45,161 bases of DNA from Candidatus Gastranaerophilales bacterium (GTDB lineage Bacteria; Cyanobacteriota; Vampirovibrionia; Gastranaerophilales; Gastranaerophilaceae). Numbering within the stretch: the stretch's first letter is position 1; each line of letters begins with the position of its first letter. Below are positions 8,194-35,177 of the stretch, in pieces. The stretch is taken from positions 1 through 45,161 of the forward strand of contig CALUQN010000021.1 of the NCBI GenBank assembly GCA_944322945.1, in the 5' to 3' direction. The notes below the pieces were generated by a model, which was not told the DNA's origin, searched no databases, and worked only from the letters and a program-made list of their open reading frames with translations. A program made the translations under genes and the position numbers.

Positions 8194-8538
8194 ATGTTCT
8201 ATAACGGATTTTATCCTCATTATGATTTGGCAGGTCGTATCCAGCACACAAAACTTGATACAGGTGTCGGGGATATGCCGTCAGCCCGTATGAGCCGGGT
8301 AGAAAGACCAGAGACACAGGATTTCAAACAAGTGTTGTCAGGTCTTGTAGAAAATTTTAATACTGAGCTTAATGCGCCTGATAACCTTTTGAAAGACGCA
8401 ATGTCCGGTTCCATGAATGTTGATATCCATGACGTTATGACAGCGATGGCAAAATCAGAAATCAGTGTTAACGTTGCAACTCAAATTACCGGAAAAGTCA
8501 TTCAAGCGTATGACAAAGTTATGCAAATTCAGGTGTAG
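8194..8538 (+). CDS. fliE: Flagellar hook-basal body protein FliE
   Basis: A 114-residue FliE, the adaptor between the MS ring and the proximal rod, exported early by the flagellar type III apparatus. The C-terminal half is diagnostic: DVHD-like DIHDVMTAMAKSEISVNVA, then a VIQAYDKVMQIQV tail matching the family's (V/I)-x-AY-x-x-(I/V)-M-x-MQV ending. The N-terminal ~45 residues are unrelated and disordered-looking. GAAAGG and AGG lie before the ATG. It is the first gene of the fliE-fliF-X-fliH-flhA set. In a non-flagellar system the equivalent would be the inner-rod protein SctI, but the motif fits FliE better. Confidence 0.88.
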   Translation: MFYNGFYPHYDLAGRIQHTKLDTGVGDMPSARMSRVERPETQDFKQVLSGLVENFNTELNAPDNLLKDAMSGSMNVDIHDVMTAMAKSEISVNVATQITGKVIQAYDKVMQIQV

Positions 8539-8608
8539 AATAGTTAATAAATAATAAAATAATAATATTTAAAACCAAAACTAATTGTGGGAGCGAGTCA
8601 ACTGTAAA

Positions 8609-10255
8609 ATGGATTTTCAAAAGTTAATGCAAAACAAACCTTTATTATATGGGATAATCGGCGGTCTGGTCTTATTGCTGGCGCTGGTCGTCTCTATTGG
8701 TATTGTAAGTTCCGCAAAGAAAAATTCAACAGGCGCTGCCCGCGTGGTTAGTGAAAAAGTTATCAAAGAACCGTTGGATTTGCTGACAACCGATAATCTG
8801 GGAAAAGCTATAGAAATTCAAGCACTGCTGGCACGCGACGGTATTATTGCGAGCCGTAAAATTGACGGTACAAAATCAACAATTTTCCTGAAAGAATATA
8901 CCCAATCACAGCGTGATGCAGCGCTTCTTGCAATTGTAAAAAGCGGTTTGATGGATCAAAATGTGGGGCTTGAGATTTTCGATAAGGGTGATTTTACATC
9001 CACAAAAGAAGATAAAAAAATCCGTCTGGCAAGAGCAATCAACGGAGAACTTGCACGTTTAATCCGTAAAATCGACCCGATTACAAATGCGTCCGTATTC
9101 ATTTCAATACCGGAACAGACAATGTTTTCTTCTATGCAAAAACCTGTTACCGCAACGGTTCAGATTACAATTCCGGCAGGTGACAAGTTAGACCAGCTGA
9201 AAGTAAAAGCAATAACCAACCTATTGCTTGGCAGTGTTTCAGGACTTACGACAGAAAATATTTCCATAACAGATACGAACGGCAACGTTTATTCAAGCAT
9301 GATAGAGGCAAGCGATGAAATGCTTCAAAAACTTGAAGAAAACGATAAGTATATGCAGCAAAAAGTTGCAGCCCAGTTGGACAGATTGATAGGTAAAGGA
9401 AATTACGTGGTAACCGTGAGCACATTCCTGACTCAGTCTCCTGTAGAAAAATTCAGTATCGTTTACGATCCTGAAAGAAAAACCTCGGTAAATGAACAAT
9501 CATTCACAGAAGGATTAGGAGACCAGACCCAGGACAGCAACGGCGGCGTAAACGCAGTCAGTGTTTACCTGCCGAACGGTCTGCCGGCAGCAGGTTCAAA
9601 CTCCAGTCAGAACAGAAGCTACTCACGTTCTGCAAGAGAAACTCAGTATGGTGTTACAAAAACCCAGATTAACGAGTACATGAAGCCCGGCGTTGTAGAA
9701 GAAATTTCAGTCGCGGTAACTCTTGAGAAAAATTCATTGCCTGCAAACACAACACTTGAAGAGTTGAAAGAGTTAGTCGCCCGTGCGGCAAGCCCGATGG
9801 TTGATCCAGAGAATGTATCAATCGCATTTGCGGATTCACTGGATCCGTATCTGGCGTCAGACAGACCGGTTAACCTGCCGAAACCTGACGAAACAGGTAA
9901 CCCGTGGTGGTTAGCGGTTGCATTGAGTGCCGTAGGCTTGCTCATAGTATTCAAGGCCGTGTCCGATAAGGTTAAACAGGTTCAGGAAGCTAACCGTAGA
10001 GAGGTGGAAGCCCTGAGAGCGCATGCGGCTGAACAGGAAAGACAGTTGAATGCAATCAATGACAGAGCGTCAGAACTCACTGCCCGTCAGTCAGAACTTG
10101 CACAAGGTCTGTTAGAACAACAGCAGCGGGAATTCCTGCCGGCTGGCAGTACTGAAGATTTGATGAATACGCTTTCATCACTGTCTTCACAACTTTCAGA
10201 TACTGATGCGGATGAAGCCGGCGAAAAGATTAAGAGCTGGATAGAACAAGGCTAA
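8609..10255 (+). CDS. fliF: Flagellar MS-ring protein FliF
   Basis: A 548-residue MS-ring subunit. It shows an N-terminal membrane segment (about 12-34, GIIGGLVLLLALVV), the ring-building motifs (IIASRKIDGTKSTIFL; KDKKIRLARAINGELARLI-like segment; DPITNASVFISIP), a second membrane segment near 432-451 (WWLAVALSAVGLLIVFKAV), and then a ~97-residue cytoplasmic tail that is coiled coil plus the end LSDTDADEAGEKIKSWIEQG. That end resembles the FliG-binding tail of classical FliF proteins (for example DNDPRVVALVIRQWM in enteric FliF). The ATG at 8609 is used; an upstream in-frame TTG at 8585 is possible. The intact tail argues for a flagellar C ring and not a plain SctJ ring. Confidence 0.9.
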   Translation: MDFQKLMQNKPLLYGIIGGLVLLLALVVSIGIVSSAKKNSTGAARVVSEKVIKEPLDLLTTDNLGKAIEIQALLARDGIIASRKIDGTKSTIFLKEYTQSQRDAALLAIVKSGLMDQNVGLEIFDKGDFTSTKEDKKIRLARAINGELARLIRKIDPITNASVFISIPEQTMFSSMQKPVTATVQITIPAGDKLDQLKVKAITNLLLGSVSGLTTENISITDTNGNVYSSMIEASDEMLQKLEENDKYMQQKVAAQLDRLIGKGNYVVTVSTFLTQSPVEKFSIVYDPERKTSVNEQSFTEGLGDQTQDSNGGVNAVSVYLPNGLPAAGSNSSQNRSYSRSARETQYGVTKTQINEYMKPGVVEEISVAVTLEKNSLPANTTLEELKELVARAASPMVDPENVSIAFADSLDPYLASDRPVNLPKPDETGNPWWLAVALSAVGLLIVFKAVSDKVKQVQEANRREVEALRAHAAEQERQLNAINDRASELTARQSELAQGLLEQQQREFLPAGSTEDLMNTLSSLSSQLSDTDADEAGEKIKSWIEQG

Positions 10256-10263
10256 GCCTGCAC

Positions 10264-10768
10264 AAAAGCGCAGCCTAAAAGATGAGAGAAAGGATTACGA
10301 AAACCTAATAAAGCGGCAAAACGAAAATTAGTAAGTAGTGATGAAAAAAAAGAGAAGGGTTGACAGATAAAAAGCGCAGCCTAAAAGATGAGAGAAAGGA
10401 TTACGAAAATCTAATAAAGCGGCAAAACGAAAATTAGTAAGTAGTGATGAAAAAAAAGAGAAGGGTTGACAGATAAAAAGCGCAGCCTAAAAGACAGAGA
10501 AAGGATTACGAAAATCTAATAAAGCGGCAAAACGAAAGTTAGTAAGTAGTAATGAAAAAAAGAGAAGGGTTGACAGATAAAAAGCGCAGCCTAAAAGACA
10601 GAGAAAGGATTACGAAAATCTAATAAAGCGGCAAAACGAAAGTTAGTAAGTAGTAATGAAAAAAAGAGAAGGGTTGACAGATAAAAAGCGCAGCCTAAAA
10701 GATGAGAGAAAGGATTACGAAAACCTAATAGAGCGGCAAAACGAATATTAGTAAGTAGTGGTGAAAAA
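10264..10768 (+). repeat. Five tandem 104-106 bp repeats between fliF and the next gene
   Basis: Units start with AAAAGCGCAGCC at 10264, 10370, 10476, 10580 and 10684 (lengths 106, 106, 104, 104 and a final partial unit of 85). Each unit carries GAGAAAGGATTACG, a CTAAT...ATTAG (or GTTAG) inverted pair around AAAGCGGCAAAACG, then GTAAGTAGT. Units 1 and 2 then read ATG in a 9-codon frame (MKKKRRVDR, stop); units 3 and 4 have one A fewer and a longer frame. The last unit has GTG there and leads into the true ATG at 10769. The array interrupts an otherwise tight operon. No protein spans it. Confidence 0.9.
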
Positions 10769-11806
10769 ATGGCAATAAAAGGGTTTGATTATCAGGAATT
10801 TGCGAGGAATTTAGCGGGACAGGCGCAGGAATTGGTGCCTCCCGAGTTTCGTGATTTTGAGAAACAATACGTAATCAATACCCTGTATAATTTTTCAAAC
10901 CTTGCCGGCGAAGCTTTGTATAATGATACGGAGTCGAATTTTAATGTAGATCAGGCAGTGATGATAACCCAGATAATAGCGGAATGGGCTTATCACAAAT
11001 CAGTCGACTTGATACGTTCGGGTCTGCCACAGGATTATTGGGATCCTATTATGCAGAAGATAGCGTTTACTATCTTCGAGATAGCTAAGCAGACTTTTAA
11101 ACAGGGGCTGCCGCAGGAACAAATATTACAACTGATAGAACACCACGTCAAAAAAGTTTATATAGAGTCAATCGAAGAATTAAAAAATAAGGGATTGATT
11201 GACGAGGGTTTGAAGCAAAAGGCAGAGAGCCAGTCAAACATAGACGCAATGATGCAGCAAATGCAAGAGGAAGCTCCGCCGGAGCCTCCGGCACCACAGC
11301 CTGCAGCCCAAGCAGCACCGCAGCCTCAGCCGCAGCCGGCAAACGTACCGGCACCAGCCGCGGCATCAGGTGTACCTGCACAAAAAGGTGCAATGCAAAC
11401 ACCAAAGCTGCTTAAACTTGTAACGTGCGCGATGCTTTTCCAAAAGATGAAGCAGGATAAAGTCCAGACGATTTTGGATAAATTTGATGTTCAGGATGCC
11501 ACGGAAGTTATCAAGTATATGAGCGTGGATAATCTTCCGGATAAGGTAGATGCAGGACACGCGTTGAGATGTTTAGCAGAGATACGGAAAAGTTTACCTC
11601 AAAAACGTATAATAGATACATCCAAAATAGTAGCTCAGGTACAAAGTGTTGCGGAATATTTAGACAAACCGAAAATAGAAACTTTGTTAAAGTTAGAGCG
11701 TCCGAACGTAAAACGCTTTGTATTCACGGCTTTGGAAGGCGAGTATTATGAAATTCCGCCTCACGTTGCGCAAATTATTGCCACCCATCTTGCGGATAGT
11801 GTATAA
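10769..11806 (+). CDS. Unknown protein in the fliG position (possible divergent FliG/C-ring protein)
   Basis: A 345-residue protein that I do not recognise by sequence. It has a helical N-terminal domain (1-165), a Pro/Ala/Gln linker (about 168-210, containing APQPQPQPANVPAP), and a helical C-terminal domain (212-345) ending HVAQIIATHLADSV. Gene order fliE-fliF-this-fliH-flhA and a FliG-like length put it where fliG normally sits. FliF's tail keeps a FliG-binding look. The segment LLKLVTCAMLFQKMKQDKVQ through DATEVIKYM has the rhythm of the FliG middle domain, but the EHPQ signature is absent. SctK of non-flagellar systems, also located between SctJ and SctL, is an alternative. No Shine-Dalgarno of note; it is preceded by the tandem repeats. 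Confidence 0.6.
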   Translation: MAIKGFDYQEFARNLAGQAQELVPPEFRDFEKQYVINTLYNFSNLAGEALYNDTESNFNVDQAVMITQIIAEWAYHKSVDLIRSGLPQDYWDPIMQKIAFTIFEIAKQTFKQGLPQEQILQLIEHHVKKVYIESIEELKNKGLIDEGLKQKAESQSNIDAMMQQMQEEAPPEPPAPQPAAQAAPQPQPQPANVPAPAAASGVPAQKGAMQTPKLLKLVTCAMLFQKMKQDKVQTILDKFDVQDATEVIKYMSVDNLPDKVDAGHALRCLAEIRKSLPQKRIIDTSKIVAQVQSVAEYLDKPKIETLLKLERPNVKRFVFTALEGEYYEIPPHVAQIIATHLADSV

Positions 11807-11817: not shown

Positions 11818-12588
11818 ATGATTATAAAACGTAAAAAACAACAAGCTGAAGTAACCGGGGCACCGGAGGTTACTTCAGAAGGTGATGTTCAAGAGCTTCA
11901 GGAATCATCTGAGGCTGATTTGGCTGAAGAAATCTCGGAAGACACGTCAGAAGAACAGCCGCAGCCGACCGAGGATGAGGAGATAGATTTATTCAATCTG
12001 GATAATATAGATTTTAAGCAGCGTCAGGAGCGCAGAAGAGGAGACCGGCGCCGCGGGTTCAGGCGTATAGATGACAGAAATTTGATATCAAGAGCCCGTG
12101 AGGAAGCCGACAGTATAAAAGAAGCTGCTGCAAAAGAAGGGTATCAGGCCGGGTTAGAATCTGCACAGGCAGATATCGCACAGCTTAAAGAAGCGTTAAG
12201 TGCTTTTATTTCAGCCAAGCAGGAGGTTTTTGATTATATAGCGCCTGATATTTTGGAGATAAGTGTTGATATAGCAAAAAAAATAATTAAAAAAGAATTA
12301 TCACAGGAGCCTCAACAGATTATAGACAGTATAATTGAGATACTCAAGACGCTGTCAAAAGAAGAATCAAAGGTGACAATACGGGTAAATCCAAATCAGG
12401 TGAGCATTGTCAAACAGCAGATGCCATCGGTTTTGGAGCAGGCAGGGCTTGATGCCAAGATACTTGTAGTGCCTGACGAGACAATGAGTGAAGGCGGTTG
12501 TCTGGTAACGACGACCAACGGTGTGATAGATGCGACAATCGAAACGCAGATAGGAATTATCTGTGAAGCGTTGAAAGAGGTACAGTAG
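11818..12588 (+). CDS. fliH: Flagellar export ATPase regulator FliH
   Basis: A 256-residue FliH/SctL-type protein, the stator that links the export ATPase FliI to the C ring. The N-terminal ~65 residues are acidic and disordered. An arginine-rich block (RQERRRGDRRRGFRR) lies at about 70-84. Next comes a helical EEADSIKEAAAKEGYQAGLE segment with alanine/glycine spacing typical of the FliH coiled coil. The C-terminal domain contains VDIAKKIIKKEL, VTIRVNPNQV and a DETMSEGGCLVTTTNGVIDA segment, the FliH/SctL/V-ATPase-E signature. It lies 11 bp after the fliG-position gene and 6 bp before flhA. No fliI is visible in the window. Confidence 0.82.
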   Translation: MIIKRKKQQAEVTGAPEVTSEGDVQELQESSEADLAEEISEDTSEEQPQPTEDEEIDLFNLDNIDFKQRQERRRGDRRRGFRRIDDRNLISRAREEADSIKEAAAKEGYQAGLESAQADIAQLKEALSAFISAKQEVFDYIAPDILEISVDIAKKIIKKELSQEPQQIIDSIIEILKTLSKEESKVTIRVNPNQVSIVKQQMPSVLEQAGLDAKILVVPDETMSEGGCLVTTTNGVIDATIETQIGIICEALKEVQ

Positions 12589-12594: not shown

Positions 12595-14694
12595 ATGGCA
12601 CAGGGCGCAGGAGCACAGCAGGGCAATCCGTTAAGCGAAATATTTATGGCAGTCTTTGTACTGTTCCTTATCGTAATCCTGTTGGTAGAATTACCAAACT
12701 GGATTATTAACGTTTGTATCTGCTTGAATATTACGCTCGGGATTGTGCTTTTGATGTTTGCGTTGTACGTAAAAAAGACGCTTGAACTGTCGTCATTCCC
12801 GTCAATCATTCTGATTGGTACAATGTTTAGATTGTGTCTTTCCATCGCGTCCACGAGGTTAATTCTTGCAAAAGGCGAGGCGGGGGAAGTAATCCACGCG
12901 TTCGGAACATTCGTAACCGGCGGTAATATGATAGTCGGTGGTGTAATCTTCCTTATCATCACGGTTGTACAGTTTATGGTAATTACCAAAGGTGCTGAAC
13001 GTATCGCGGAAGTTGCGGCACGTTTTGCATTGGACGCAATGCCCGGTAAACAAATGACAATTGACGCGGACTTTAACGCGGGGTTGATTTCGCCGGAAGA
13101 AGCGACTAAAAAGCGTGAAGATTTGCAAAGAGAATCAAACCTATTCGGTAGCATGGACGGTGCGATGAAGTTTGTAAAAGGTGATACTATCGCAGGTATT
13201 ATCATCGTAATCATCAACATTGTTGGCGGTTTGTGTATCGGGTGTTTGATGAACAATATGCCGGCGGCAGATGCGGTTTCAAAATATACAATATTAACAA
13301 TCGGTGACGGTTTGGCCTCGCAGGTTCCGTCATTGTTGATGTCAATTGCAGCCGGTGTATTTATGACCCGTTCATCAGCCGCTAGTGAATCTTTGGGTGC
13401 TGATGTATCCGGACAGATTATGAGTAAGCCTCACGCGCTGTTTTTCTCTGCCGGGTTCTTGCTGATGCTTGCTGTTACCGGACACTGGACAGGCTTGCCG
13501 TGGCTGCCGTTTACGGTGTTTGCGATAGGTCTGGCAATAGCCGGCTTCTCAGTATTGATTAACGCGGATGTCCAATCACAACTTGGTCAATTGGAAAACG
13601 TTCGTCAGAACATGCAGGATTTGGTAAACCCGAACAGAATGTACGAGCGTTTGGGTGTAGATGTTTTGAGTTTGCAGGTAGGTTCTAACCTGCTTGTAAT
13701 CGCCGACCCTGACCAGGAAGGTCAATTGCTTGCAAAAATTGCCGCTTTACGTCAAAGAGTTACTGATGAGCTTGGATATATTATTCCTAACATAAGAATT
13801 ATGGACTCATCAGCGCTTGATGCAAATGAGTATATGCTTTCTATCCGCGGTAATACAGTTGCGACAGGTTATGTTTATCCGGGCAAATTCATGGTAATTG
13901 CAGACCAGTGGGATGCTTTGAGAAAAGATGTTCCGCCTGATGCGATAATCGGTATTGACCCGACATATCAAACACAGGCTTACTGGATTTCCGCAGAAGA
14001 CGCAAAAGCCGCACGTTCAGTCACCGCAATTGACGCAACTGACGTTATTGTTACCCACTTACAGGAGTGCGTCAGAAAACACGTTGATGAGGTTATGACA
14101 AAAACGGATGTTCTTAAACTTATGGAACTTGTCCGCTCTCAAGACCCGACACTTGTCAATGACCTTGTGCCGACGATTATTTCCACAAGCGATTTGAGAA
14201 AAATATTTGTTAACCTTATCAGAGAAAAAGTTTCTATCAAAGATATTATCTTTGTATTTGAGCGTCTTTGTGATTACGCGAGATTTTCCAAAGAGCCTGA
14301 TATTCTGTCGGAAAGACTTCGTGCGGCACTCGGGCGTCAAATCTGTTTATCAAATGTTCAGGAAGATAAAGTTCTGTATGCGCTTACACTTTCACCTGAA
14401 TGGGAAAAAATTCTTGATGACAGCTGCCAGAGAACAGAGCTTGGGACAATGTTTCTGTTAAATCCTATGCAGGTACAGGAATTAATTGAAACTACAGCAA
14501 ACACACTGGTACGTGCACACAATGCCTGCGGTAAGCAGCCGGTTATCCTGTGTTCACCGAGAATAAGACTGCCGCTGTATCAGCTTCTTGAACGTCACAT
14601 GCCGACAATTGTCGTAATTTCTTATTCTGAATTGATTACCGATATAAAGGTTGAAGCTATTGATACTATCGGCGAATCTTATGCTGTCGAATAG
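12595..14694 (+). CDS. flhA: Flagellar biosynthesis protein FlhA
   Basis: A 699-residue export-gate protein of the FlhA/SctV family. About eight transmembrane segments occupy residues 15-320. The family signature region NLFGSMDGAMKFVKGDTIAG lies near residue 180-200, preceded by LDAMPGKQMTIDADFNAG. The cytoplasmic nonamer-forming domain fills the C-terminal half (VLSLQVGSNLLVIAD through the end). Length is typical of FlhA. The flagellar neighbours support FlhA over SctV. The stop lies 2 bp from the convergent holB stop, so this operon segment ends here without an obvious hairpin. Confidence 0.92.
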   Translation: MAQGAGAQQGNPLSEIFMAVFVLFLIVILLVELPNWIINVCICLNITLGIVLLMFALYVKKTLELSSFPSIILIGTMFRLCLSIASTRLILAKGEAGEVIHAFGTFVTGGNMIVGGVIFLIITVVQFMVITKGAERIAEVAARFALDAMPGKQMTIDADFNAGLISPEEATKKREDLQRESNLFGSMDGAMKFVKGDTIAGIIIVIINIVGGLCIGCLMNNMPAADAVSKYTILTIGDGLASQVPSLLMSIAAGVFMTRSSAASESLGADVSGQIMSKPHALFFSAGFLLMLAVTGHWTGLPWLPFTVFAIGLAIAGFSVLINADVQSQLGQLENVRQNMQDLVNPNRMYERLGVDVLSLQVGSNLLVIADPDQEGQLLAKIAALRQRVTDELGYIIPNIRIMDSSALDANEYMLSIRGNTVATGYVYPGKFMVIADQWDALRKDVPPDAIIGIDPTYQTQAYWISAEDAKAARSVTAIDATDVIVTHLQECVRKHVDEVMTKTDVLKLMELVRSQDPTLVNDLVPTIISTSDLRKIFVNLIREKVSIKDIIFVFERLCDYARFSKEPDILSERLRAALGRQICLSNVQEDKVLYALTLSPEWEKILDDSCQRTELGTMFLLNPMQVQELIETTANTLVRAHNACGKQPVILCSPRIRLPLYQLLERHMPTIVVISYSELITDIKVEAIDTIGESYAVE

Positions 14695-23601: not shown

Positions 23602-24840
23602 TTGAGTAATTCTTTGAATGTATTTTTGAATGATAAACATATCGGAATATTAGAAAAAGACGGGAATGGCGGTATAATTTTTCAATATTCAAATAATGCG
23701 GATAGAATCTTATCTTTGAGTTTGCCAATTCAAAAGGCCACTTTTGATAATAAACAATGCAGAGGATTTTTTAACGGGTTACTGCCAGAAAGCGAACATA
23801 CAAGAATTGCTATCGGGAAAAAATACGGGATTAATCCCAAAAACGATTTTTCTATATTGCAAGCAATAGGATACGATTGTGCGGGTGCTGTTTCATTTTT
23901 TGATAGTGATGATGAGCAAACACCATCAAAATACTTGCAAGAAAATTATGAAATTGATTATACGCCATTGTCAGAAAATGCACTTGAAAAATTTATAAAT
24001 GAACTTCCCCAAAAACCATTGGCAACAGGAGTTGAAGATATGCGCCTATCTTTAGCTGGTGCTCAGGATAAAACCTCTGTAATTGTTGTTGACGGACAAA
24101 TAGGAATTCCCAAAAGTAATGTGCCGACAAGCCATATTTTGAAACCTGCAATAAACGGATTTAATGAAACAATTGAAAATGAGTTTATATGCATAAAAGC
24201 CGCTAAAGCATTGGGCATAAATGTTCCAGATGTCAAAATCGGTTATGCAAATAAGACAAAATACTTTTTAATTCAAAGATACGACAGAGAAATAATTGCT
24301 AACAAAATAAAAAGAATTCATCAGGAAGATTTTTGTCAGGCTTCCAATATTCCAAGTGTATATAAATACCAATCTGAAGGGGGTGTTGATTTTAAGAGAT
24401 GTTTTGAAATTTTAAGAGCCACATCCCAGCCTGCCGTTGCAATTAACCAATTTATTCAATTAATGATTTTTAATTACTTGATAGGAAATAATGATGCCCA
24501 CGGCAAGAATTTTTCTATACTGCATTATGACAGTGGAGAAATAAAATTTGCCCCTGCATACGATATTCTGTGTTCTCAGGCTTATCCTGAATTATCAAAT
24601 AAAATGGCAATGAAAATCGGCGGACATTATAAACATGATGAAATTTTATTAAGGCATTTTGAAAAACTGGCAAATGAAAATAATATCAGTTTTACTCAGT
24701 TAAAAAAGGTTATAAAAAATCAGTGCGAAAATCTTCCAATTATTGTTGAGTATGTGATAAGCAGCTTTGACAATAAAATAGGAAAAGATATTTTATCGGT
24801 AGTACAAAAAAATTGTACTAAATTGTTAAAAGAATTTTAA
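23602..24840 (+). CDS. hipA: HipA-like serine/threonine kinase toxin
   Basis: A 412-residue HipA-family kinase, whose characterised members phosphorylate glutamyl-tRNA synthetase or related targets and stop growth. The start is TTG at 23602, 6 bp after AGAGG. The N-subdomain (about 5-105) is present, so this is not a split HipBST system. Kinase features are LAGAQDKTS near residue 150 (phosphate loop with the autophosphorylated serine region), QRYDRE, the HQEDFCQ segment, catalytic NYLIGNNDAHGKNFSI near residue 295 and the metal-binding PAYDIL near residue 318. All look intact. It is followed by a hairpin at 24848. Confidence 0.9.
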   Translation: MSNSLNVFLNDKHIGILEKDGNGGIIFQYSNNADRILSLSLPIQKATFDNKQCRGFFNGLLPESEHTRIAIGKKYGINPKNDFSILQAIGYDCAGAVSFFDSDDEQTPSKYLQENYEIDYTPLSENALEKFINELPQKPLATGVEDMRLSLAGAQDKTSVIVVDGQIGIPKSNVPTSHILKPAINGFNETIENEFICIKAAKALGINVPDVKIGYANKTKYFLIQRYDREIIANKIKRIHQEDFCQASNIPSVYKYQSEGGVDFKRCFEILRATSQPAVAINQFIQLMIFNYLIGNNDAHGKNFSILHYDSGEIKFAPAYDILCSQAYPELSNKMAMKIGGHYKHDEILLRHFEKLANENNISFTQLKKVIKNQCENLPIIVEYVISSFDNKIGKDILSVVQKNCTKLLKEF

Positions 24841-24847
24841 TATACAG

Positions 24848-24879
24848 AATACAACATAATGAAGTTGTGTTGTATTTTT
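24848..24879 (+). terminator. Terminator after hipA
   Basis: AATACAACA (24848-24856) pairs with TGTTGTATT (24868-24876), followed by TTT. The 9-bp perfect stem lies 8 bp past the hipA stop. Confidence 0.65.
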
Positions 24880-24934
24880 GGGTAAATGTATGTGGGGAGA
24901 GATAAATTGATTTTTTGCAGGTGGAAGTATATTC

Positions 24935-25002
24935 TGAACATTGCTGAAATTTTTGAACATTTTTTGAACGCTGTTTAAATGTCGTTTAAACGGTGTTTAA
25001 AT
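24935..25002 (+). repeat. Array A: 11-bp-phased TGAAC/TAAAT motifs
   Basis: T(G/A)AA(C/T) motifs begin at 24954, 24965, 24976, 24987 and 24998, exactly 11 bp apart, with two more at 24935 and 24945. The spacers are T-rich. The array ends just before the tyrosine recombinase leader. Phasing at one helical turn suggests a protein-binding array on one DNA face. Arrays B (35408) and C (39693) share the motif and the spacing. Confidence 0.75.
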
Positions 25003-25004
25003 TA

Positions 25005-25017
25005 TGTATCATTCGAC
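25005..25017 (+). repeat. Left copy of a TGTATCATTC inverted pair
   Basis: TGTATCATTCGAC, abutting array A. An inverted near-copy (GTCTGAATGATACA, one extra base) is at 35458-35471. The pair would bracket the recombinase and restriction operon with the 5'-TG ends outward. No target duplication is visible. Confidence 0.45.
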
Positions 25018-25071
25018 TTTACTTTTTATACGGAGGAAGCAATCATTGTCTGTGATTAAGCGAGTTTGAAA

Positions 25072-25611
25072 ATGAATGTAGTACAACCTATAAAAAAGAT
25101 AGAAGATATTCAAAAGATTAAAAAATATTTGGCAAAAAAGCCAAGAGATGCCGTGCTTTTTAGTTTTGGGATAAATACAGGGCTTAGAATATCTGATATA
25201 TTATCGCTTGATGTTGGGGATGTAAAAGGCAGAGATTATATTGAAATTAGAGAGAAAAAGACGAATAAGTATAAGAAATTCCCGCTTAATAGGTTTTTGA
25301 AGGAGGAGATTGATTTATTTGTAGAAGGATTACCGAGTGAGCAACCGCTTTTTTATACTCAAAAATATTGCAGGTTGGATAGAGCACAGGCGTACAGAAT
25401 TTTGAATAAGGCAGCACAAGCCGTTGGTGTGAAGGGAAGAATCGGAACACATACGCTGAGAAAGACATTCGGGTATCATCATTATAAAAAATATAATGAT
25501 ATAGTACTCCTGCAAAAAATCTTTAACCATTCCTCTCCATCAGTAACACTTCGCTACATCGGTATCGAACAAGACACAATAGATGAAAGTTATATGAATT
25601 TTTATTTATAA
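25072..25611 (+). CDS. Tyrosine recombinase, catalytic domain only
   Basis: A 179-residue integrase (ATG at 25072; TTG two codons earlier is also possible). The catalytic set is complete; counting from the TTG it is R41 (TGLRISD), a lysine near 65 (KTNKYKK), H129-x-x-R132 (HTLRK), H155 (FNHSS) and nucleophile Y164 (TLRYIG). The usual N-terminal core-binding domain is missing, as in the short recombinases found next to some type I restriction loci. It lies just before hsdM, but the single hsdS shows no inverted duplicate here, so its substrate may be the element ends. A separate protein in the island (38245-38805) looks like a core-binding domain without a catalytic domain. Confidence 0.85.
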   Translation: MNVVQPIKKIEDIQKIKKYLAKKPRDAVLFSFGINTGLRISDILSLDVGDVKGRDYIEIREKKTNKYKKFPLNRFLKEEIDLFVEGLPSEQPLFYTQKYCRLDRAQAYRILNKAAQAVGVKGRIGTHTLRKTFGYHHYKKYNDIVLLQKIFNHSSPSVTLRYIGIEQDTIDESYMNFYL

Positions 25612-25733
25612 ATATAGTAAAAGTTAATTTTATAAGAAGCCACTTATAAGCTTTAAAACTTCTACTTTGGGGCTAATTATAAAAGTATATTTGTGATATT
25701 ATAAATATGATGTTAATTAATCTAGGAGTTTTT

Positions 25734-27245
25734 ATGGCTGGCAAGGGTAGTGTAAAACTTGGATTTGAAAAGCAAATATGGGATGCAGCGTGTGTACTTT
25801 GGGGACACATACCTGCAGCCGAATATAGAAAAGTCATTATTGGTTTAATCTTTTTAAGATATATTTCTGCAGCATTCGAAAAAAGATATAATGAACTTTT
25901 AGCCGAAGGTGATGGATTTGAAAATGACAAAGATGCTTATACAATGGAAAACATTTTCTATGTCCCAGAGTCTGCTCGATGGTCAACTATTGCAGCTGCC
26001 GCTCATACTCCTGAAATTGGCAAAGTAATTGATGATGCAATGCGAGCTATTGAAGCTGAAAACAAAGCACTCAAAAATGTTTTGCCTAAAAACTATGCAA
26101 GTCCGGATTTGGATAAAAGAGTTTTAGGTGAAGTTGTTGATTTGTTTACAAATAATATAAAAATGGAAGATATAGGGACTGACAATGATTTACTAGGTCG
26201 AACTTATGAATACTGTATCGCACAATTTGCAGCCTATGAAGGTACAAAAGGTGGTGAATTCTATACCCCATCTAGCGTTGTAAGAACAATTGTTGAAATC
26301 CTAAAACCTTACGAAAACTGTAGAGTTTATGACCCTTGCTGTGGTTCAGGTGGCATGTTTGTACAGTCTGTAAAATTCTTGCAAGCACATAGCGGAAATA
26401 GAAACAAGATTTCTGTATATGGTCAAGAATCCAATGCTGATACTTGGAAAATGGCAAAAATGAATATGGCTATACGTGGTATTGATGCTGATTTCGGGCC
26501 ATATCAAGCTGATACATTTTTTAATGATTTGCACCCAAGCCTAAAAGCAGATTTTATTATGGCAAACCCACCATTTAACCTTTCTAACTGGGGACAAGAC
26601 AAACTTCAGGATGATGCTAGATGGAAATATGGCTTGCCACCTAGTGGAAATGCTAACTATGCTTGGATTCAACACATGATTTATCACTTAGCACCAAATG
26701 GGAAAATAGGTTTGGTATTAGCTAATGGTGCTTTATCTACTCAAACAAGTGGTGAAGGTGAAATCAGAAAACGAATTATTGAAGATGATTTGATTGAAGG
26801 TATTGTTGCAATGCCAACACAGCTGTTTTATAGCGTAACAATACCTGTAACCTTGTGGTTTATATCAAGAAACAAAAAACAAAAAGGCAAAACTCTTTTC
26901 ATAGATGCTCGAAAAATGGGTTATATGGAAGATAGAAAACACAGAAACTTGTCTGATGAAGATATCAAAAAACTTGCAGATACTTTTACAGCTTTCCAAG
27001 AAGGAATATTGGAAGATAAAAAAGGTTTTTGTGCAGTAGTAACAACAGAAGATATCAAAAAACAAGATTATATTCTAACCCCTGGCCGCTATGTTGGGAT
27101 AGAAGAACAAGAGGATGATGGCGAACCATTTGAAGATAAAATGAAACGTTTGACCTCAGAATTATCTGAAATGTTTGCACAATCAAATACTTTGCAGGAT
27201 GAAATCAAAAAGAACCTTGCAAGCATAGGTTTTGAGGTGGAGTAA
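25734..27245 (+). CDS. hsdM: Type I restriction-modification methylase HsdM
   Basis: A 503-residue N6-adenine methyltransferase subunit. The ATG at 25734 is chosen because AGGAG lies 6 bp upstream; an in-frame ATG at 25707 lacks this. An N-terminal HsdM helical domain (1-140) is followed by the SAM motif DPCCGSGGMF and the catalytic ANPPFN (NPPF). The region GGEFYTPSSVV before motif I is typical of HsdM. With HsdS it methylates the recognition site. The TAA sits directly before the next ATG at 27246, starting a chain of coupled genes to hsdR. A TTATAAG/CTTATAA inverted pair lies in the 122-bp leader. Confidence 0.95.
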   Translation: MAGKGSVKLGFEKQIWDAACVLWGHIPAAEYRKVIIGLIFLRYISAAFEKRYNELLAEGDGFENDKDAYTMENIFYVPESARWSTIAAAAHTPEIGKVIDDAMRAIEAENKALKNVLPKNYASPDLDKRVLGEVVDLFTNNIKMEDIGTDNDLLGRTYEYCIAQFAAYEGTKGGEFYTPSSVVRTIVEILKPYENCRVYDPCCGSGGMFVQSVKFLQAHSGNRNKISVYGQESNADTWKMAKMNMAIRGIDADFGPYQADTFFNDLHPSLKADFIMANPPFNLSNWGQDKLQDDARWKYGLPPSGNANYAWIQHMIYHLAPNGKIGLVLANGALSTQTSGEGEIRKRIIEDDLIEGIVAMPTQLFYSVTIPVTLWFISRNKKQKGKTLFIDARKMGYMEDRKHRNLSDEDIKKLADTFTAFQEGILEDKKGFCAVVTTEDIKKQDYILTPGRYVGIEEQEDDGEPFEDKMKRLTSELSEMFAQSNTLQDEIKKNLASIGFEVE

Positions 27246-28103
27246 ATGAACCTAGATATAGCAAATATGGTTATGAATATAGAACAAACCTCTCAAGGAT
27301 TTGATTGGGGTAATTTGGTGACAGCATTATTTGCGTCTTTTTTTGGTGCTTTAGCGGCTTTTGGGTTAAATATTTGGCGAGAAAATAAGAAACAAAACGA
27401 AGAAGAAAAAGGTAAACTATTAAAACTTTTTTATGATGTAAGTATTATCGCAAAAACTTTTTGTTATTATTATAAAAATATACAATCTAGCATAAATGGC
27501 ATTACAAAAGGAACAACTCCGTTTCAAACCCCTATTTTATTAGATGCAGTAGATATTGATATTAATGAATACGGTTTTATTGCCAAAAAAGCGCCTAAAT
27601 TATATGAAGTGCTGACATATATGCAAAATGATATTTTATTATTGTTAAACTACAATGATAACTTTGAGCAATTAAAAACAAATGACCAGTATGCAATATT
27701 AAACAAGCTATTATTTATAAATGCACATATCCCTAAAGCTTTAGCAAAAATTTTCGTAGCACTTCAAAATATTAATCTTTATCTAAGTAGATATTACAAA
27801 TCTAAGAATTTGATAAAAAATGAAGCTTGTAATTCATACATTAGAATGAAGAAAATTCTTGATGAATATAAAAAGCAATATCAAAATATAGTAAATTCTA
27901 AAAATCCATGTGATATGTTTACAGAAAGACCTCTTGGGGATGAAGAAGTAGAAACATATAAAATTGACTTAGATTATATTAACGAAGTTCTTGATACTTG
28001 GGTTATGAATTTTGGGTTAAATGAAAAACAAAAAGAAATAATTGAAACAGAAATAGCTGAGCAAGCAAAATCGAAATGGGAGGCTCCCGAAAATGAAATC
28101 TAG
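27246..28103 (+). CDS. Membrane-anchored unknown protein within the RM operon
   Basis: A 285-residue protein that I do not recognise. One N-terminal membrane segment (about residues 22-43, LVTALFASFFGALAAFGLN) follows a short outside tail, then a long, helical, lysine-rich cytoplasmic region with a conserved-looking WRENKKQNEEEKGKLLKLFYDV start. The start directly abuts the hsdM stop, with GAGGTGGAG as ribosome site. It overlaps the next gene by 11 nt. Single-span membrane proteins occur as sensors or effectors in defence operons; that role is inference. Confidence 0.7.
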   Translation: MNLDIANMVMNIEQTSQGFDWGNLVTALFASFFGALAAFGLNIWRENKKQNEEEKGKLLKLFYDVSIIAKTFCYYYKNIQSSINGITKGTTPFQTPILLDAVDIDINEYGFIAKKAPKLYEVLTYMQNDILLLLNYNDNFEQLKTNDQYAILNKLLFINAHIPKALAKIFVALQNINLYLSRYYKSKNLIKNEACNSYIRMKKILDEYKKQYQNIVNSKNPCDMFTERPLGDEEVETYKIDLDYINEVLDTWVMNFGLNEKQKEIIETEIAEQAKSKWEAPENEI

Positions 28104-28677
28104 GATAAACTTGATTTTAAAATTACTAGAACAAAGTGTTGATTTAGTATATCAGAATGATAAATATTTAATAAAACATTCTGTTCATGAGCAAGATATA
28201 TCACACAGAATAGCATTTTACTTTGAAAACTTATTAGGAAATTATGCTTGGTTTACACAAAAAGGATATAGTGTTGATGTGGAATATAATAAAAATTTTG
28301 AGGATTCAAAAAGAGTTTATAAACAATGTTCTGATTGCCAATTAGAACATTGTTACATTAAAAATTCAGGCTATAACATAGGAGATTATATTCAAATTTG
28401 CAGACCAGATATAATCCTTCATAAAAGAGGAAAAAATAATAATTCCTATAGCGATTATAATAACCTGCTGGTTATTGAAGTAAAAAAGAATGACCCTAGT
28501 TCAGAAGAAGATTTTGCTAAATTATCAGCATTTACTTGTAAAAATTCAGATTACAAGTACAATTTGGGAATATATATAAATTTAAACACTAAAACACCTG
28601 AATATTTTCAAAATGGGAAAAAACTTTCTAAAGAATCAGATATCGTATATAATTATAACCAAAAGGAGAATAGATGA
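28093..28677 (+). CDS. Unknown protein with PD-(D/E)XK-like motif, in the RM operon
   Basis: A 194-residue protein. The central part reads RPDIILHKRG, then NNLLVIEVKKND. This is the D...(I/V)E-x-K arrangement of the PD-(D/E)XK nuclease fold, with the catalytic aspartate in RPD about 30 residues before E-V-K. Two cysteine pairs lie just upstream (QCSDCQLEHC), possibly a zinc site. The family looks like short DNA-cleavage or nucleic-acid-binding proteins; no close functional call is possible. It overlaps both neighbours (11 nt upstream, 4 nt with the HEPN gene). Confidence 0.65.
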   Translation: MKSRINLILKLLEQSVDLVYQNDKYLIKHSVHEQDISHRIAFYFENLLGNYAWFTQKGYSVDVEYNKNFEDSKRVYKQCSDCQLEHCYIKNSGYNIGDYIQICRPDIILHKRGKNNNSYSDYNNLLVIEVKKNDPSSEEDFAKLSAFTCKNSDYKYNLGIYINLNTKTPEYFQNGKKLSKESDIVYNYNQKENR

Positions 28678-29090
28678 ATAAATCAGAACTGGATATATCA
28701 AAATTTAGAACCTGTATAGATTCACTAAAAACCTGTTCAAGTGATTACAAATCCTTTACTGATGAGCATATCAAAGATTATATCGAAGATGCTTGTGTAA
28801 AGCGTTTTGAGTACACAGTAGAAACAGCTTGGAAGATTATGAAAAAGTATCTAAAACTTGAATATGGCAAATCCGATAAAGAATTGACTATGAACAATAT
28901 ATTCAGGCTAATGGAAGGCTATGGGTTTATACAATCTTGGGAAACTTGGCGCAATTATTACGATAGAAGAAATGATACAAGCCATGAATATAACCAAGAT
29001 AAAGCCAAAGAAATTTTAAACAACATTGATGATTTAGTAAAAGATTGCGAGTATTTATACACAAATCTTGCAAAAGCTCTTGGAGAATAG
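28674..29090 (+). CDS. HEPN toxin-like protein (HI0074/HepT family)
   Basis: A 138-residue helical protein of the nucleotidyltransferase substrate-binding (HI0074) family, part of the HEPN superfamily. The segment TAWKIMKKYLKLEY and the LMEGYGFI-x-SWETWRNYYDRRNDTSHEYN block are typical. The HEPN RNase motif R-x4-H-x-Y is intact (R99, H104, Y106). In characterised HepT/MntA pairs this protein is an RNase toxin whose tyrosine is AMPylated by the MNT partner, here the next gene, whose ATG follows directly on this stop. It sits inside a type I restriction operon. Confidence 0.85.
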   Translation: MNKSELDISKFRTCIDSLKTCSSDYKSFTDEHIKDYIEDACVKRFEYTVETAWKIMKKYLKLEYGKSDKELTMNNIFRLMEGYGFIQSWETWRNYYDRRNDTSHEYNQDKAKEILNNIDDLVKDCEYLYTNLAKALGE

Positions 29091-29405
29091 ATGATACCCG
29101 GAATAACAGAAGAAGAACAACATATTATTGAAAACATATTAAAAGAATATGATAAAGAATATTCTTTTTTCTACTATGGCTCAAGAGTGAAAGGAACTTT
29201 TGAAAAAACATCTGATTTGGATATTCTGATAAAAGGCACCCAAGAAATGCCTTTGTCTATTTTAGAAGAGATAAAGGAAAAGTTTGATAAAAGTTCTCTT
29301 CCTTATATAGTGAATTTTTCAGATTATTATGCAATAGAAAAATATTTTTATAATCTAATAAAACCTACTCTAACTGATTACAAGGAGGGCGGAGATGACC
29401 TCTAA
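29091..29405 (+). CDS. MNT-type minimal nucleotidyltransferase (antitoxin)
   Basis: A 104-residue minimal nucleotidyltransferase. The GS-x10-D-x-D signature is intact (G30-S31 in YYGSRVKG, D42 and D44 in SDLDIL). In known HEPN/MNT pairs it transfers AMP to the toxin. It starts immediately after the HEPN gene stop and overlaps hsdS by 11 nt, so toxin, antitoxin and specificity subunit are translationally linked. An alternative is a free HI0073-like nucleotidyltransferase with an unknown acceptor. Confidence 0.88.
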   Translation: MIPGITEEEQHIIENILKEYDKEYSFFYYGSRVKGTFEKTSDLDILIKGTQEMPLSILEEIKEKFDKSSLPYIVNFSDYYAIEKYFYNLIKPTLTDYKEGGDDL

Positions 29406-30552
29406 AAATGAAATTAAAACATTAGGAGAACTTTCAGTTGATAATAAAGGCTCATATGGAATTGCAGCTTCTGCTGTTGAATATTCAGAAGAGTTGTATA
29501 CATACTTAAGAATTAGTGATATTACAGACGATGGTAGAATTAATAAAAATGATTTGAAATCTGTAAATGAACAAAATGCAGAAGATTATCTCCTAAAGCC
29601 AAATGATATTGTTTTTGCTAGAACAGGTGGAAGTACTGGAAGAAATTATTTTTATGATGGTAATGACGGACAATTTGTTTATGCAGGTTTTTTAATAAAG
29701 TTTAGCATTGATCCTCAAAAAGTTAATCCTAAATATATAAAATATTATTGTCAATCAAAAATTTATCGTGATTGGGTACATTCTTTTAATACTGGGAGTA
29801 CACGTGGAAATATTAATGCACAAACTTATTCCCAATTGCCAATTATACTTCCTCCAAGAACACAACAAGATATTTTAGTAAAAATGTTGTCGAGTTTGGA
29901 TGATAAGATTGAGTTGAATAATAAGATTAATCAGAATTTAGAACAGCAAGCCATAGCAATTTTCAAATCCTGGTTTGTCGATTTCGAACCCTTCGGTGGC
30001 AAAATGCCTGAGGCTTGGAAAGAAAAAACATTAGACGAATTTTGTAACATTTTTACTGGTAAAAAGAATGCCAATCAATTTGATGAAAATGGTGAGTATT
30101 TATTCTTCACCTGTGCTCCTACCCCACTAAGAATAAACAGTTTTATTTATGATGGCGCAGCCATAATCATTGCTGGTAATGGAGCTTATACAGGACGAAC
30201 AACCTTTTACAAAGGAAAATTTGATTTATATCAAAGGACCTATGCTTGTACAATAAAAACTGATATTGAAGCTAATTATATTTACTTGTTATACATTATT
30301 ATAAAAAATGTTCTTCAAAAAAAAATTATGGGAGGAACTCATGGCTCTGCAATTCCTTATATAGTAATGAACGACATAGCCAAGTTTAAGTTACACTATG
30401 AAAAAACTACATTTGATAAATTATCACAAATAATAAAATCTTTTATTAAAATAATTCAAAGGAATAACGAAGAAAATGAACGATTAGCACAATTACGAGA
30501 CACACTTTTGCCCAAACTCATGTCAGGTGAAATTGATGTCAATAAAGTCTAA
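29395..30552 (+). CDS. hsdS: Type I restriction specificity subunit HsdS
   Basis: A 385-residue specificity subunit with two target-recognition domains. TRD1 spans about residues 1-150, the central conserved region contains LDDKIELNNKINQNLEQQA and the IFKSWFVDFEPF motif, TRD2 spans about 205-345, and the distal conserved helix reads EENERLAQLRDTLLPKLMSGEI. The full-length two-TRD layout indicates a bipartite recognition site. AAGGAGGGCGGAG precedes the ATG. No second or partial hsdS and no internal inverted repeats are seen. The stop lies 11 bp before the next gene. Confidence 0.93.
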   Translation: MTSKNEIKTLGELSVDNKGSYGIAASAVEYSEELYTYLRISDITDDGRINKNDLKSVNEQNAEDYLLKPNDIVFARTGGSTGRNYFYDGNDGQFVYAGFLIKFSIDPQKVNPKYIKYYCQSKIYRDWVHSFNTGSTRGNINAQTYSQLPIILPPRTQQDILVKMLSSLDDKIELNNKINQNLEQQAIAIFKSWFVDFEPFGGKMPEAWKEKTLDEFCNIFTGKKNANQFDENGEYLFFTCAPTPLRINSFIYDGAAIIIAGNGAYTGRTTFYKGKFDLYQRTYACTIKTDIEANYIYLLYIIIKNVLQKKIMGGTHGSAIPYIVMNDIAKFKLHYEKTTFDKLSQIIKSFIKIIQRNNEENERLAQLRDTLLPKLMSGEIDVNKV

Positions 30553-30563
30553 CGGAAAAAATA

Positions 30564-32105
30564 ATGATAGAAGTTAATCAAAATAATCTTGAAAGTTATA
30601 TATCTGATTTTGAACTTTTTTTAGGAAAGTCATTCATAGATGCAGCAAATAATTATATTGCGAACAATAATGTTGGAATAAAAAATTGTACTGATAAGAA
30701 AGTTCATCCTTTTTATAAATATTGGAATAGCTATATTAACGATATCAAAAACACAAAAGAACATAATAAATTACATATTTCAAGAGAGACTATATTTATT
30801 TTAGAATTATTATCGAATATTAAAGATATTAAAAATAAAAAAAATATTTCACGAATTATTAACAGTTTATTACAGCATAATACATATTATTCTGCAGTTT
30901 TTGAAACCCAAATTTTAGCATACTATAGTAGCAGGTATAATATAGAAATAATTGAAGAAAATCAAATAGAAGGAGAAAAAAGTCCAGATTTTTTATTACA
31001 AACAAATAACAAAAATATATACATAGAATGTAAAGCTTTAGAAGATTTTGAAATTAATAATAACATAGAATATCAAAAAATAATTCAAAAATTGAATGAT
31101 TATTGTCAAAAAAAACAAAAATCTAATTCGGTAATCATAAAAACTGGAGAAAATTTTTCTAAAAGTAACACCAATAATATATTATCAAAAATTTACTGCT
31201 TAATAAACAAAAACTCAAATATAGTAACTAAAATCGATGAATTAGGTATAGAGGTTATTATTCAGAAAATTTCAGAGTGGGATAAACCTATATATGGAGC
31301 AATCAAAATTAATCACCCAAACAATGCAAATTTTACCATTCAAACTCAAATGAAAATTCTTAATAATGGAACTATCGAGCAAAGAAATTTAATATTAGTT
31401 GGTATTGAAGCAAAACCAATACTTAATTTTGAAAAAAGAATAAATAATGAAATTACTAAAGCCCGAAAACAGTTAAAAAGTGATAAGTGTAACCTCCTAC
31501 ATCTTCAATTACCAATAAGTGACGATATAAATTTTGAGAAATATATTGATGAAAATTATAACAATATTAAAGAATATATTGAGAATTATGCAAGAAGAAT
31601 TAATGCTGTTATAATTTCTAATCCGATGTATTCATATAAAAAAAACAGCCCAGAAATACAAACAATACAATCTGTTATTATTCCAAATTGTCGAGCAAAC
31701 AAGCCAATAAACTTTGATTTTAAAATGCCATATTCAACTGTAATGTATAAAAATATTCATGATTTAAAAATTCAAAATAATAAAACCAAAATAGAACTAA
31801 AAAATATTTTTTATACACAAAATATGCCTTGGGAAAAAGCTCCAGTTGGTGCAATATTGTTAAATATAGTAAGTTCGACAGCTGAAACTCAATTTAAAAT
31901 ATGGAAATCTTTCATAGGGTTGATAACTTTTGATATTGTTATAATGGGGGCAAGAGTTAGTATAAAATCAACAAAAAATATATTTCCAAAGAATGAAAAA
32001 TACAAAATTGATATTAATATAATCGGATATACTATTGAAATAATTGTTAATGATATAATCGTAGAAAAGGGGCAAATAAATGTCAATCACATTCACCGAA
32101 GCTAG
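30564..32105 (+). CDS. Large unknown protein with PD-(D/E)XK-like motif, between hsdS and hsdR
   Basis: A 513-residue protein that I do not recognise. Base composition is markedly more AT-rich than the flanking hsd genes, with many Asn/Ile/Lys codons, which points to separate acquisition. A possible nuclease core lies near residues 125-160: after IEIIEENQ come SPDFLLQT and then IYIECKALEDFE, the D...E-x-K pattern of restriction-endonuclease-fold proteins. The rest is Asn/Ile-rich with no recognised domain. It overlaps hsdR by 26 nt, so it is co-translated with the restriction subunit. Confidence 0.7.
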   Translation: MIEVNQNNLESYISDFELFLGKSFIDAANNYIANNNVGIKNCTDKKVHPFYKYWNSYINDIKNTKEHNKLHISRETIFILELLSNIKDIKNKKNISRIINSLLQHNTYYSAVFETQILAYYSSRYNIEIIEENQIEGEKSPDFLLQTNNKNIYIECKALEDFEINNNIEYQKIIQKLNDYCQKKQKSNSVIIKTGENFSKSNTNNILSKIYCLINKNSNIVTKIDELGIEVIIQKISEWDKPIYGAIKINHPNNANFTIQTQMKILNNGTIEQRNLILVGIEAKPILNFEKRINNEITKARKQLKSDKCNLLHLQLPISDDINFEKYIDENYNNIKEYIENYARRINAVIISNPMYSYKKNSPEIQTIQSVIIPNCRANKPINFDFKMPYSTVMYKNIHDLKIQNNKTKIELKNIFYTQNMPWEKAPVGAILLNIVSSTAETQFKIWKSFIGLITFDIVIMGARVSIKSTKNIFPKNEKYKIDINIIGYTIEIIVNDIIVEKGQINVNHIHRS

Positions 32106-35100: not shown

Positions 35101-35121
35101 GATAATGAATTAGAAAATTAA
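32080..35121 (+). CDS. hsdR: Type I restriction endonuclease HsdR
   Basis: A 1013-residue motor-nuclease subunit. The N-terminal nuclease region holds RPDVILFLNGLP and VVIMELKSPS (PD-(D/E)XK, D and E-L-K) near residues 130-150. The helicase has Walker A TQGSGKS near 288, DEAH in MADEAHRGQ, FIGFTGTPV, and the late motifs VDMWLTGFDVPSL and QAIARVNRVF. The C-terminal helical region contacts HsdM. All key residues look intact, so the system is likely active. AAAGGGG lies before the ATG, which is inside the end of the preceding gene. Confidence 0.95.
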   Translation: MSITFTEASYENSIIELFQGMGYSHVYGPDVERDYTSPLYEKILVDSLYRINPKLCDDAIKDAMYKLKNFEIGELVQKNAQFMNYLQNGIEVRYLKNGEEHSDIAYLVDYENVENNSFIIANQWTFIENSEKRPDVILFLNGLPVVIMELKSPSREETDASEAYRQLKNYMHEIPSMFIYNAICVMSDQLTSKAGTITSDETRFMAWKTKDGDYENTQYAQFDTFFDGIFRKERLLDIIKNFICFSKDGLDIFKILAGYHQYFAVKKAVQSTKRAVETDGKGGVFWHTQGSGKSLSMVFYAHLLQKALNSPTIVVITDRNDLDNQLYAQFAKCKDFLRQEPVQASSRENLKELLDGREANGIIFTTMQKFEESAEPLSTRRNIIVMADEAHRGQYGLAEKVDSKTGEIKVGTARIIRDCLPNATFIGFTGTPVSIKDRNTREVFGDYIDVYDMTQAVEDGATRPVYYESRVVKLQLDEPTLRLIDKEYELMAHKADPEVIEKSKRELGQMEAILGNPSTINSLVTDIIEHYETNRADKLTGKAMIVAYSRPIALKIYHKILELRPDWTEKVKVVMTESNNDPEEWRKIIGNKHHRDELAKDFKKNDSEFKIVIVVDMWLTGFDVPSLATMYVYKPMSGYNLMQAIARVNRVFEDKEGGLVVDYVGIASALKQAMNDYTVRDRKNYGDPNIETSAYPKFLEKLEVCRDIMHGFDYSKFNSGTDLERGRLISGGMNFLIGVENEKLKERFIKEALLLHQALSLCSSLVARDNRIEAAFFEAVRVLVVRYMNEGSEKKISLKEMNQKINELLKQSIKSDGVINLFQDVKEEFSLFDPKFLDEISKMKEKNVAVEVLKKLLAEQVSIYKRTNFVKSEKFSEIIKAAMNRYINGMITNEEVIEELLNIAKQMAKAKEEGNELGLTTDELAFYDALTKPAAIKDFYENDELIAITKELTDTLRKNKTIDWQKKESARAKMRMMIKKLLKAHKYPPEGMDDAVQTVMTQCELWTDNELEN

Positions 35122-35141
35122 CTTGATTTTATTTTTTTTTC

Positions 35142-35152: not shown

Positions 35153-35177
35153 ACGACACCCTAAAAAAGGAGGTCGT

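Follow-up and report, generated by a model that had tools for sequence, protein, structure and literature searches.

A candidate FliG-like adaptor in a second flagellar-type system, possibly an exporter, of Candidatus Gastranaerophilales

Introduction

In the flagellum, the N-terminal domain of FliG (FliG-N) co-folds with the tail of the MS-ring protein FliF in known structures (PMC7355467). MgtE has been described as a distant relative of FliG. A flagellum-derived type III secretion system (T3SS) without motility elements is described for Myxococcales; as Abby and Rocha recount, it had at first been labelled as relics, before its conservation and vertical inheritance were put forward as arguments for function (Abby and Rocha, 2012, PMC3459982). 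Here we analyze a stretch of 45,161 nucleotides from Candidatus Gastranaerophilales bacterium (assembly GCA_944322945.1, contig CALUQN010000021.1, positions 1 to 45,161 of the forward strand; hereafter the window), and in it a gene located between fliF and fliH, which we call X. In our view X probably serves as adaptor, in the position of FliG, within a second export machine of flagellar type, which the class has kept beside or instead of its flagellum.

Traces of such a machine may already be contained in the two founding papers on Melainabacteria. Di Rienzi et al. describe MEL.A1 as being without filament, cap, junction and L/P rings and infer ongoing reduction; their methods list 13 shared flagellar genes, with fliF, fliH, flhA and fliI as gene numbers 21, 23, 24 and 25 of one contig, and place a second flhA on another contig (Di Rienzi et al., 2013, PMC3787301). 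The absent gene number 22 in that list might well be the place of X. Soo et al. called the flagellar gene subset non-functional (Soo et al., 2014, PMC4040986). Our literature search, which covered papers outside subscription, did not turn up any account of Melainabacteria carrying a second system of the flagellar type.

Results and Discussion

The gene order in the window is fliE-fliF-X-fliH-flhA, with the following features:

8194..8538, + strand: fliE of the second system, 114 aa (PF02049, E 6.4e-18; TIGR00205, 58.9 bits, over the cut-off)
8585..10255, + strand: fliF of the second system, MS ring (PF01514, E 8.6e-36; PF08345, E 2.3e-15; TIGR00206, 117.3 bits, cut-off of 129.75 not reached)
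10216..10252, + strand: C-terminal tail of FliF (..AGEKIKSWIEQG), candidate docking site of X (by-eye comparison of FliF ends)
10264..10769, + strand: tandem repeat, 104 bp x 4.8, up to the start codon of X (TRF, 96% matches)
10769..11806, + strand: X, 345 aa, ATG start, putative FliG-like adaptor of the second system (open reading frame (ORF), homologues, structure prediction, structure search)
10769..11218, + strand: N-terminal domain of X (about residues 1-150), five long predicted helices, motif (G/A)EWxxHK (predicted local distance difference test score (pLDDT) mostly 70-88; conservation in the alignment)
11264..11398, + strand: Pro/Ala/Gln linker of X (about residues 166-210; composition; pLDDT <50 at residues 159-210)
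11399..11803, + strand: C-terminal domain of X (residues 211-345), putatively of the FliG/MgtE-type armadillo (ARM)-like fold at least over 211-280 (Pfam, PDB profile search, Foldseek, VIA)
11818..12588, + strand: fliH of the second system (PF02108, E 1.6e-27)
12595..14694, + strand: flhA of the second system, in a clade of its own beside canonical FlhA (PF00771, E 2.8e-219; TIGR01398, 705.7 bits versus 597.3 for SctV, both below the cut-off; tree)

The true start of fliF is probably the ATG at 8609, because orthologues begin with MDFQKL. The order fliF, X, fliH, flhA is kept in the listed operon-bearing loci as far as each stretch extends, with the exception of L153, where a fliH match is missing at the threshold used; the stretches L074, L075, L077 and L081 hold a related ORF only and not the operon. 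The space between fliF and X, filled by the 104-bp repeat in the window, measures about 50 bp in L106.

An earlier note, made from the letters of this stretch alone, had pointed to a FliG-sized gene in this place, and it was right to do so: the ORF is a real gene, conserved among relatives. Among 59 genomes, drafts included, of which 35 bear flagellin and 24 do not, a clear X homologue is found in 55, and a fragment at a contig end in a 56th. X is present in 22 of the 24 flagellin-less and 33 of the 35 flagellin-bearing genomes, and the second-system FlhA in 22 of 24 and 31 of 35, respectively. Canonical FliG and canonical FlhA each occur in 33 of the 35 flagellin-bearing genomes, MotB in 34 of them, and none of the three in any of the 24 others. 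Several of the misses fall in drafts of 63-88% completeness; X was scored missing in G034, G039, G056 (the contig-end fragment) and G058. Canonical FliG was counted only at PF14841 scores of at least 81 bits (33 genomes), the program's tally over the cut-off being 40, part of which are summed scores of ORFs measuring roughly 460 aa, presumably MgtE transporters.

Canonical FliG and X are thus separate genes, both present in flagellin-bearing relatives, and X persists where flagellin, MotB and canonical FliG are not detected. X is therefore not the replacement FliG of a flagellum; it belongs to the second export system. In the genome that carries the window, PF14841 (FliG) gives no match at E ≤ 1 and PF01706 (FliG_C) only a sub-threshold one (E 0.169, in L001, where the ORF was read and not identified), and neither flagellin (PF00669) nor MotB_plug (PF13677) is detected. 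Because FliG, flagellin and MotB_plug all go unmatched, it is very unlikely that the machine of this genome is a motile flagellum. The proviso of the earlier note, that a normal fliG might exist elsewhere, thus has a double answer: none was found in the own genome, and flagellin-bearing relatives possess fliG in addition to X. Its proposal of "a divergent FliG or a new C-ring or sorting-platform protein" with FliF as partner agrees with the FliG-like C-terminal domain described below, and fails insofar as X is not a flagellum's FliG.

X and its operon neighbors are under strong purifying selection in genomes without a detected flagellum. In comparisons with flagellin-less genomes of the same genus, the ratio of nonsynonymous to synonymous substitution rates (dN/dS) is 0.016-0.029 for X, 0.004-0.013 for FlhA, 0.022 for FliE, 0.027 for FliF and 0.048-0.101 for FliH; the resulting range for the five genes (0.004-0.101) omits values with saturated dS (one of them for X) and comparisons with more distant genomes. 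In an FlhA tree of 51 rows, drawn from 51 listed FlhA ORFs and E. coli FlhA that were picked for spread with near-duplicates dropped, the second-system (23) and canonical (20) proteins stand on opposite sides of a branch with 100/100 support, and both kinds occur within the same genomes. The tree is rooted at its midpoint only, and long branches meet in it, as the program warned. Both FlhA kinds are also found in families f9, f14 and f15 of the class. Judging from these sequence data, the operon is a second system and no leftover of a flagellum. Families f10-f12 (L161-L170) contain a third FlhA group in other gene contexts, which the midpoint-rooted tree places as sister of second-system FlhA; in f12 it stands, by eye, beside a FliI-like ORF. 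Weak profile matches to X in f10 and f12 (E ~1e-4 to 1e-5) are unsupported, as a profile search at E 10 found no X-like ORF in ten flhA loci of f10-f12 (five of them listed).

Further parts of the second system are scattered over the own genome. Contig 1 encodes a 394-aa SPOA protein together with FliO, FliP, FliQ and FliR, contig 9 FlhB, contig 2 FlgB-like, FlgC-like and two FlgF/G-like proteins, and contig 7 an FlgE-like and a FliK-like protein with a 163-aa neighbor without Pfam match, which occupies the place of FliJ in the relative L064. A search for fliG, fliM and fliN, which the earlier note had suggested, ended with no fliG and this single SPOA protein, which lacks a FliM domain match and scores below the cut-offs of both the FliN (61.3 bits) and the SctQ model (41.6 bits). 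FliI adjoins FlhA in the relatives L064, L065 and L072 (the last by eye), and a lytic transglycosylase (SLT) lies in the tested operons of L064, L065, L142 and L146. Flagellar models score higher than injectisome models for FlhA (705.7 versus 597.3 bits), FlhB (344 versus 316.2), FliP (225.9 versus 195.4), FliR (161.9 versus 125.4) and the FliI of the relative L065 (573.3 versus 546.4), FliQ being a tie (54.9 versus 54.6); flagellar cut-offs are passed by FliP and FliE only. These scores argue for a T3SS of the flagellar rather than the injectisome type. A 121-aa ORF lies between second-system fliQ and fliR (L062:11387-11752), with a weak match to T2SS-T3SS_pil_N (E 0.024).

What kind of protein is X? 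As the earlier note had described, a Pro/Ala/Gln linker separates two helical domains (helices predicted at residues 8-167 and 211-344) and the standard FliG motifs are missing: a Pfam scan finds no FliG domain over threshold in X. Its best Pfam row is MgtE_N at residues 213-258 (E 0.0029, sub-threshold), and among 23 homologues sub-threshold matches go to MgtE_N in 13, FliG_M in five, FliG_N in four and FliG_C in two. A PDB sequence search with the whole-length profile did not return FliG; with the profile of the C-terminal domain, FliG chains rank second, fourth and fifth (E 0.022-0.11), with a glutaredoxin ahead at 0.01. The full-length model (15 sequences; mean pLDDT 65) has a best Foldseek row of E 0.12, and most of its VIA rows belong to designed helical proteins, to ATPases or to further helical bundles, whose Z scores of at most 9.0 amount to helical-bundle noise; the FliG middle domain appears at row 39 (Z 5.3, residues 212-279). 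When the C-terminal domain is searched by itself, FliG chains take rows 1-6 of Foldseek (350,542 PDB chains; E 0.8-2.5), followed by MgtE at row 7, and rows 1-14 of 50 in VIA (Z 6.2-4.6), followed by MgtE at row 15 and other folds at Z ≤ 4.0. Comparison of a predicted structure with FliG, another suggestion of the earlier note, hence gives FliG at the head of the C-domain search, at weak scores, and no FliG match for the N-terminal domain. Three weak, agreeing kinds of evidence (Pfam, Foldseek/VIA and the PDB profile search) suggest that the C-terminal domain is FliG-like, the structural resemblance spanning about residues 211-284. This domain is also the best-conserved part of X in other orders. 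A scan of viral contigs found no relative of X.

The presumed partner of the C-terminal domain is the end of FliF. In the window FliF closes with KIKSWIEQG, and a tail of the KIKSWIE type closes 61 of 61 homologous second-system FliF ORFs listed (by eye, some genomes being counted twice), which bears out the tail, like the FliG-binding one, seen in the earlier note; the eight canonical FliFs of the order end in ..AARLLLSYIKD or close to that. By analogy with FliG-N, the tail is likely to be the docking site of X. Because the EHPQ motif is missing and the FliF tail is conserved, we lean towards FliG-N rather than the middle domain (FliG-M) as the counterpart of the C-terminal domain.

The N-terminal domain, whose invariant or nearly invariant residues cluster around EWxxHK, found no convincing known fold in structure searches of the full-length model. 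It behaves as a module. Between fliF and X, it occurs alone at L065:9843-10406 and L073:8992-9555 (187 aa each), and a protein of its size (170 aa) lies at L142:8279-8791, as if the domain had been duplicated in tandem at these three loci. Outside the operon, predicted membrane helices follow it where X has the FliG-like domain (L074, L075, L077, L079:621-1604 and L081), and a 593-aa protein of genome G016 (L076:8042-9823) combines it with a membrane helix and an FlhA-like cytoplasmic domain. Because it recurs alone, membrane-anchored or joined to an FlhA-like domain, its sequence contexts suggest a docking module that needs placement near the export gate. FlhA-like cytoplasmic domains also occur by themselves: the own genome encodes a protein of ~490 aa (L063:9540-11015; contig 1:68072-69076) with the FlhA cytoplasmic domain (PF00771 322-654, E 6.3e-52) and the FlhA transmembrane part unmatched, ORFs of this kind are listed in 54 of 59 genomes, and in the flagellated G041 (L103) one stands, by eye, beside FliJ/FliK/FlgD/FlgE-like ORFs.

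How might X work? Following the FliG analogy, X most likely forms the link between the tail of FliF and a cytosolic ring that has no stator, that is, acts as FliG minus the torque part. We envision a scenario whereby the C-terminal ARM-like domain attaches to the conserved tail of FliF in the manner of FliG-N, so that the FliF ring would bear about one X per tail, while the N-terminal bundle would stand in for the middle and torque domains and, on its flexible linker, would hold the SPOA protein and/or the FliH-ATPase complex beneath the FlhA export gate. Without a stator, the torque domain would be dispensable and the C ring would have turned into a static docking platform; putative substrates would exit via FliE, the rod and a short hook-like end. 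A protein exporter is more likely than a broken flagellum.

Comparison with described systems helps to place X. With FliG it shares the position next to fliF, a similar size, an all-helical build, a putatively ARM-like domain best matched by FliG chains and a FliF with a conserved C-terminal tail; unlike FliG, it has no FliG domain over threshold, no EHPQ, only one clear ARM-like unit and an unrelated N-terminal bundle of ~160 residues, occurs without detected MotB and coexists with a true FliG. The SctK/SctQ sorting platform would be similar in that X may serve, without torque, as an adaptor connecting the inner-membrane ring with one SPOA protein, whereas ring, gate, ATPase, rod and hook-like proteins of the second system are of the flagellar type. 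The Myxococcales T3SS is likewise flagellum-derived and without motility elements, but nearly all models tested place the second system nearer to flagella; it also keeps FliE and FlgB- and FlgC-like proteins, which are treated as flagellum-specific markers in that work (PMC3459982), and coexists with a flagellum in several families of one class. With MgtE_N (PF03448) and FlgY, FlbB and MotE, X has the putative ARM-like domain in common; it differs from the latter three in gene context and, as far as hydropathy tells, in having no visible signal peptide or membrane anchor.

Several observations weigh against X as the FliG-position adaptor. Each single FliG match remains under accepted thresholds (Foldseek E 0.8-2.5; VIA Z <8; Pfam below gathering), and in 11 proteins scanned singly, FliG_N, FliG_M and FliG_C all fall short of their curated cut-offs, the best being FliG_M at 21.5 of 25 bits. 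The EHPQ motif of the FliM interface is absent from X, and a loosened pattern occurs in one of 70 distinct homologues; E[HN]PQ is present in eight of eight canonical FliGs of the order. Profile-profile comparison with these eight FliGs is not significant for X (probability 6.5) or for its N-terminal domain (0.5). The C-terminal domain modelled alone is poor (mean pLDDT 56), and in its top rows FliG-N and FliG-M are matched to about the same degree. Finally, the own genome is a draft (2.12 Mb, 35 contigs, 98.6% complete), and the stretches of it that were examined contain no FliI, no genome-wide search having been made.

Could X be something else altogether? We regard it as very improbable that the operon is what remains of a decaying flagellum, with X as a degenerate fliG, because dN/dS values of 0.004-0.10 in a flagellin-less genus do not fit decay. 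Moreover, flagellin-bearing relatives possess the operon in addition to genes for canonical FliG, FlhA, MotB and flagellin, canonical FliG being a gene distinct from X; the FlhA of the operon groups in its own clade, and in-frame stops are confined to two genomes (G033 and G023) among the full-length X matches listed. About as remote is an E-ring protein like FlgY, FlbB or MotE, which carry an MgtE_N/ARM-like domain. MgtE_N is indeed the commonest weak Pfam match among X homologues, and FlgY and FlbB are reported to be marked by such a domain at the C terminus (PMC13023049, PMC11870540), but FlgY is described as having a signal peptide and ARM-like domains that ring the MS ring, whereas X contains no long hydrophobic stretch (best 19-residue mean 0.76; maximum among 70 homologues 1.74) and no single long helix ahead of its ARM-like domain, and is encoded between fliF and fliH.

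An SctK-type sorting-platform protein without FliG ancestry, its ARM-like resemblance being convergent, is unlikely in our judgment and yet more plausible than either of these. It would account for the sub-threshold FliG matches, the non-FliG N-terminal domain and the single SPOA protein, which matches neither FliM nor, above cut-off, FliN or SctQ. Against it, FliG chains come first in the structure search of the C-terminal domain, the export-gate proteins other than the tied FliQ favor flagellar models, and SctK is not among the matches listed for the 23 homologues (25 of 76 Pfam families); no sequence match of X to SctK was seen either, and SctK chains are missing from the VIA lists, too little by itself to dismiss SctK. 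A somewhat better case, though still a doubtful one, can be made for a second system that assembles a non-flagellin filament, an adhesin or a hook-like structure on the cell surface, with export serving assembly and X as base adaptor, which overlaps with our own proposal as far as X is concerned. The rod-type, two FlgF/G-like, FlgE-like and FliK-like proteins and the SLT lytic transglycosylase in the operons of four relatives are consistent with such a structure, but no filament candidate was identified, and a pure export channel would also have a short rod and hook.

If X is the adaptor of an export machine, what is its history? With about even confidence, we propose an ancient second flagellum-derived machine in the non-photosynthetic relatives of Cyanobacteria that lost rotation, retained its MS ring and gate together with rod and hook-like parts and was exapted into an exporter independently of injectisomes. 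X would then be a FliG remodelled into a sorting-platform adaptor, intermediate between FliG and an SctK-like function, and its N-terminal domain a new module, elsewhere membrane-anchored and fused to an FlhA-like cytoplasmic domain. The flagellum-to-secretion transition, mainly documented from injectisomes, would possibly have a second case here, with its own remodelled FliG. Where the two founding papers saw a reduced or non-functional flagellum, the present data indicate a separate machine under strong selection, present in most of the gut lineage, flagellated or not. Motility predictions for this common gut order change as a consequence, and flhA, fliF, fliI and fliP are unsafe as flagellum markers there.

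Other Features of the Window

An island-like stretch at 23602-41410 carries HipA, a phage integrase, type I restriction-modification genes, an Mrr endonuclease, a TniB-like ATPase and a Mu-type transposase; a nucleotidyltransferase/HEPN-like pair (28674-29405) splits its restriction-modification genes. Tandem repeats lie at both edges of the window, at 1-372 (154-bp unit, 98% matches) and at 44655-45159 (81-bp unit, 77% matches).
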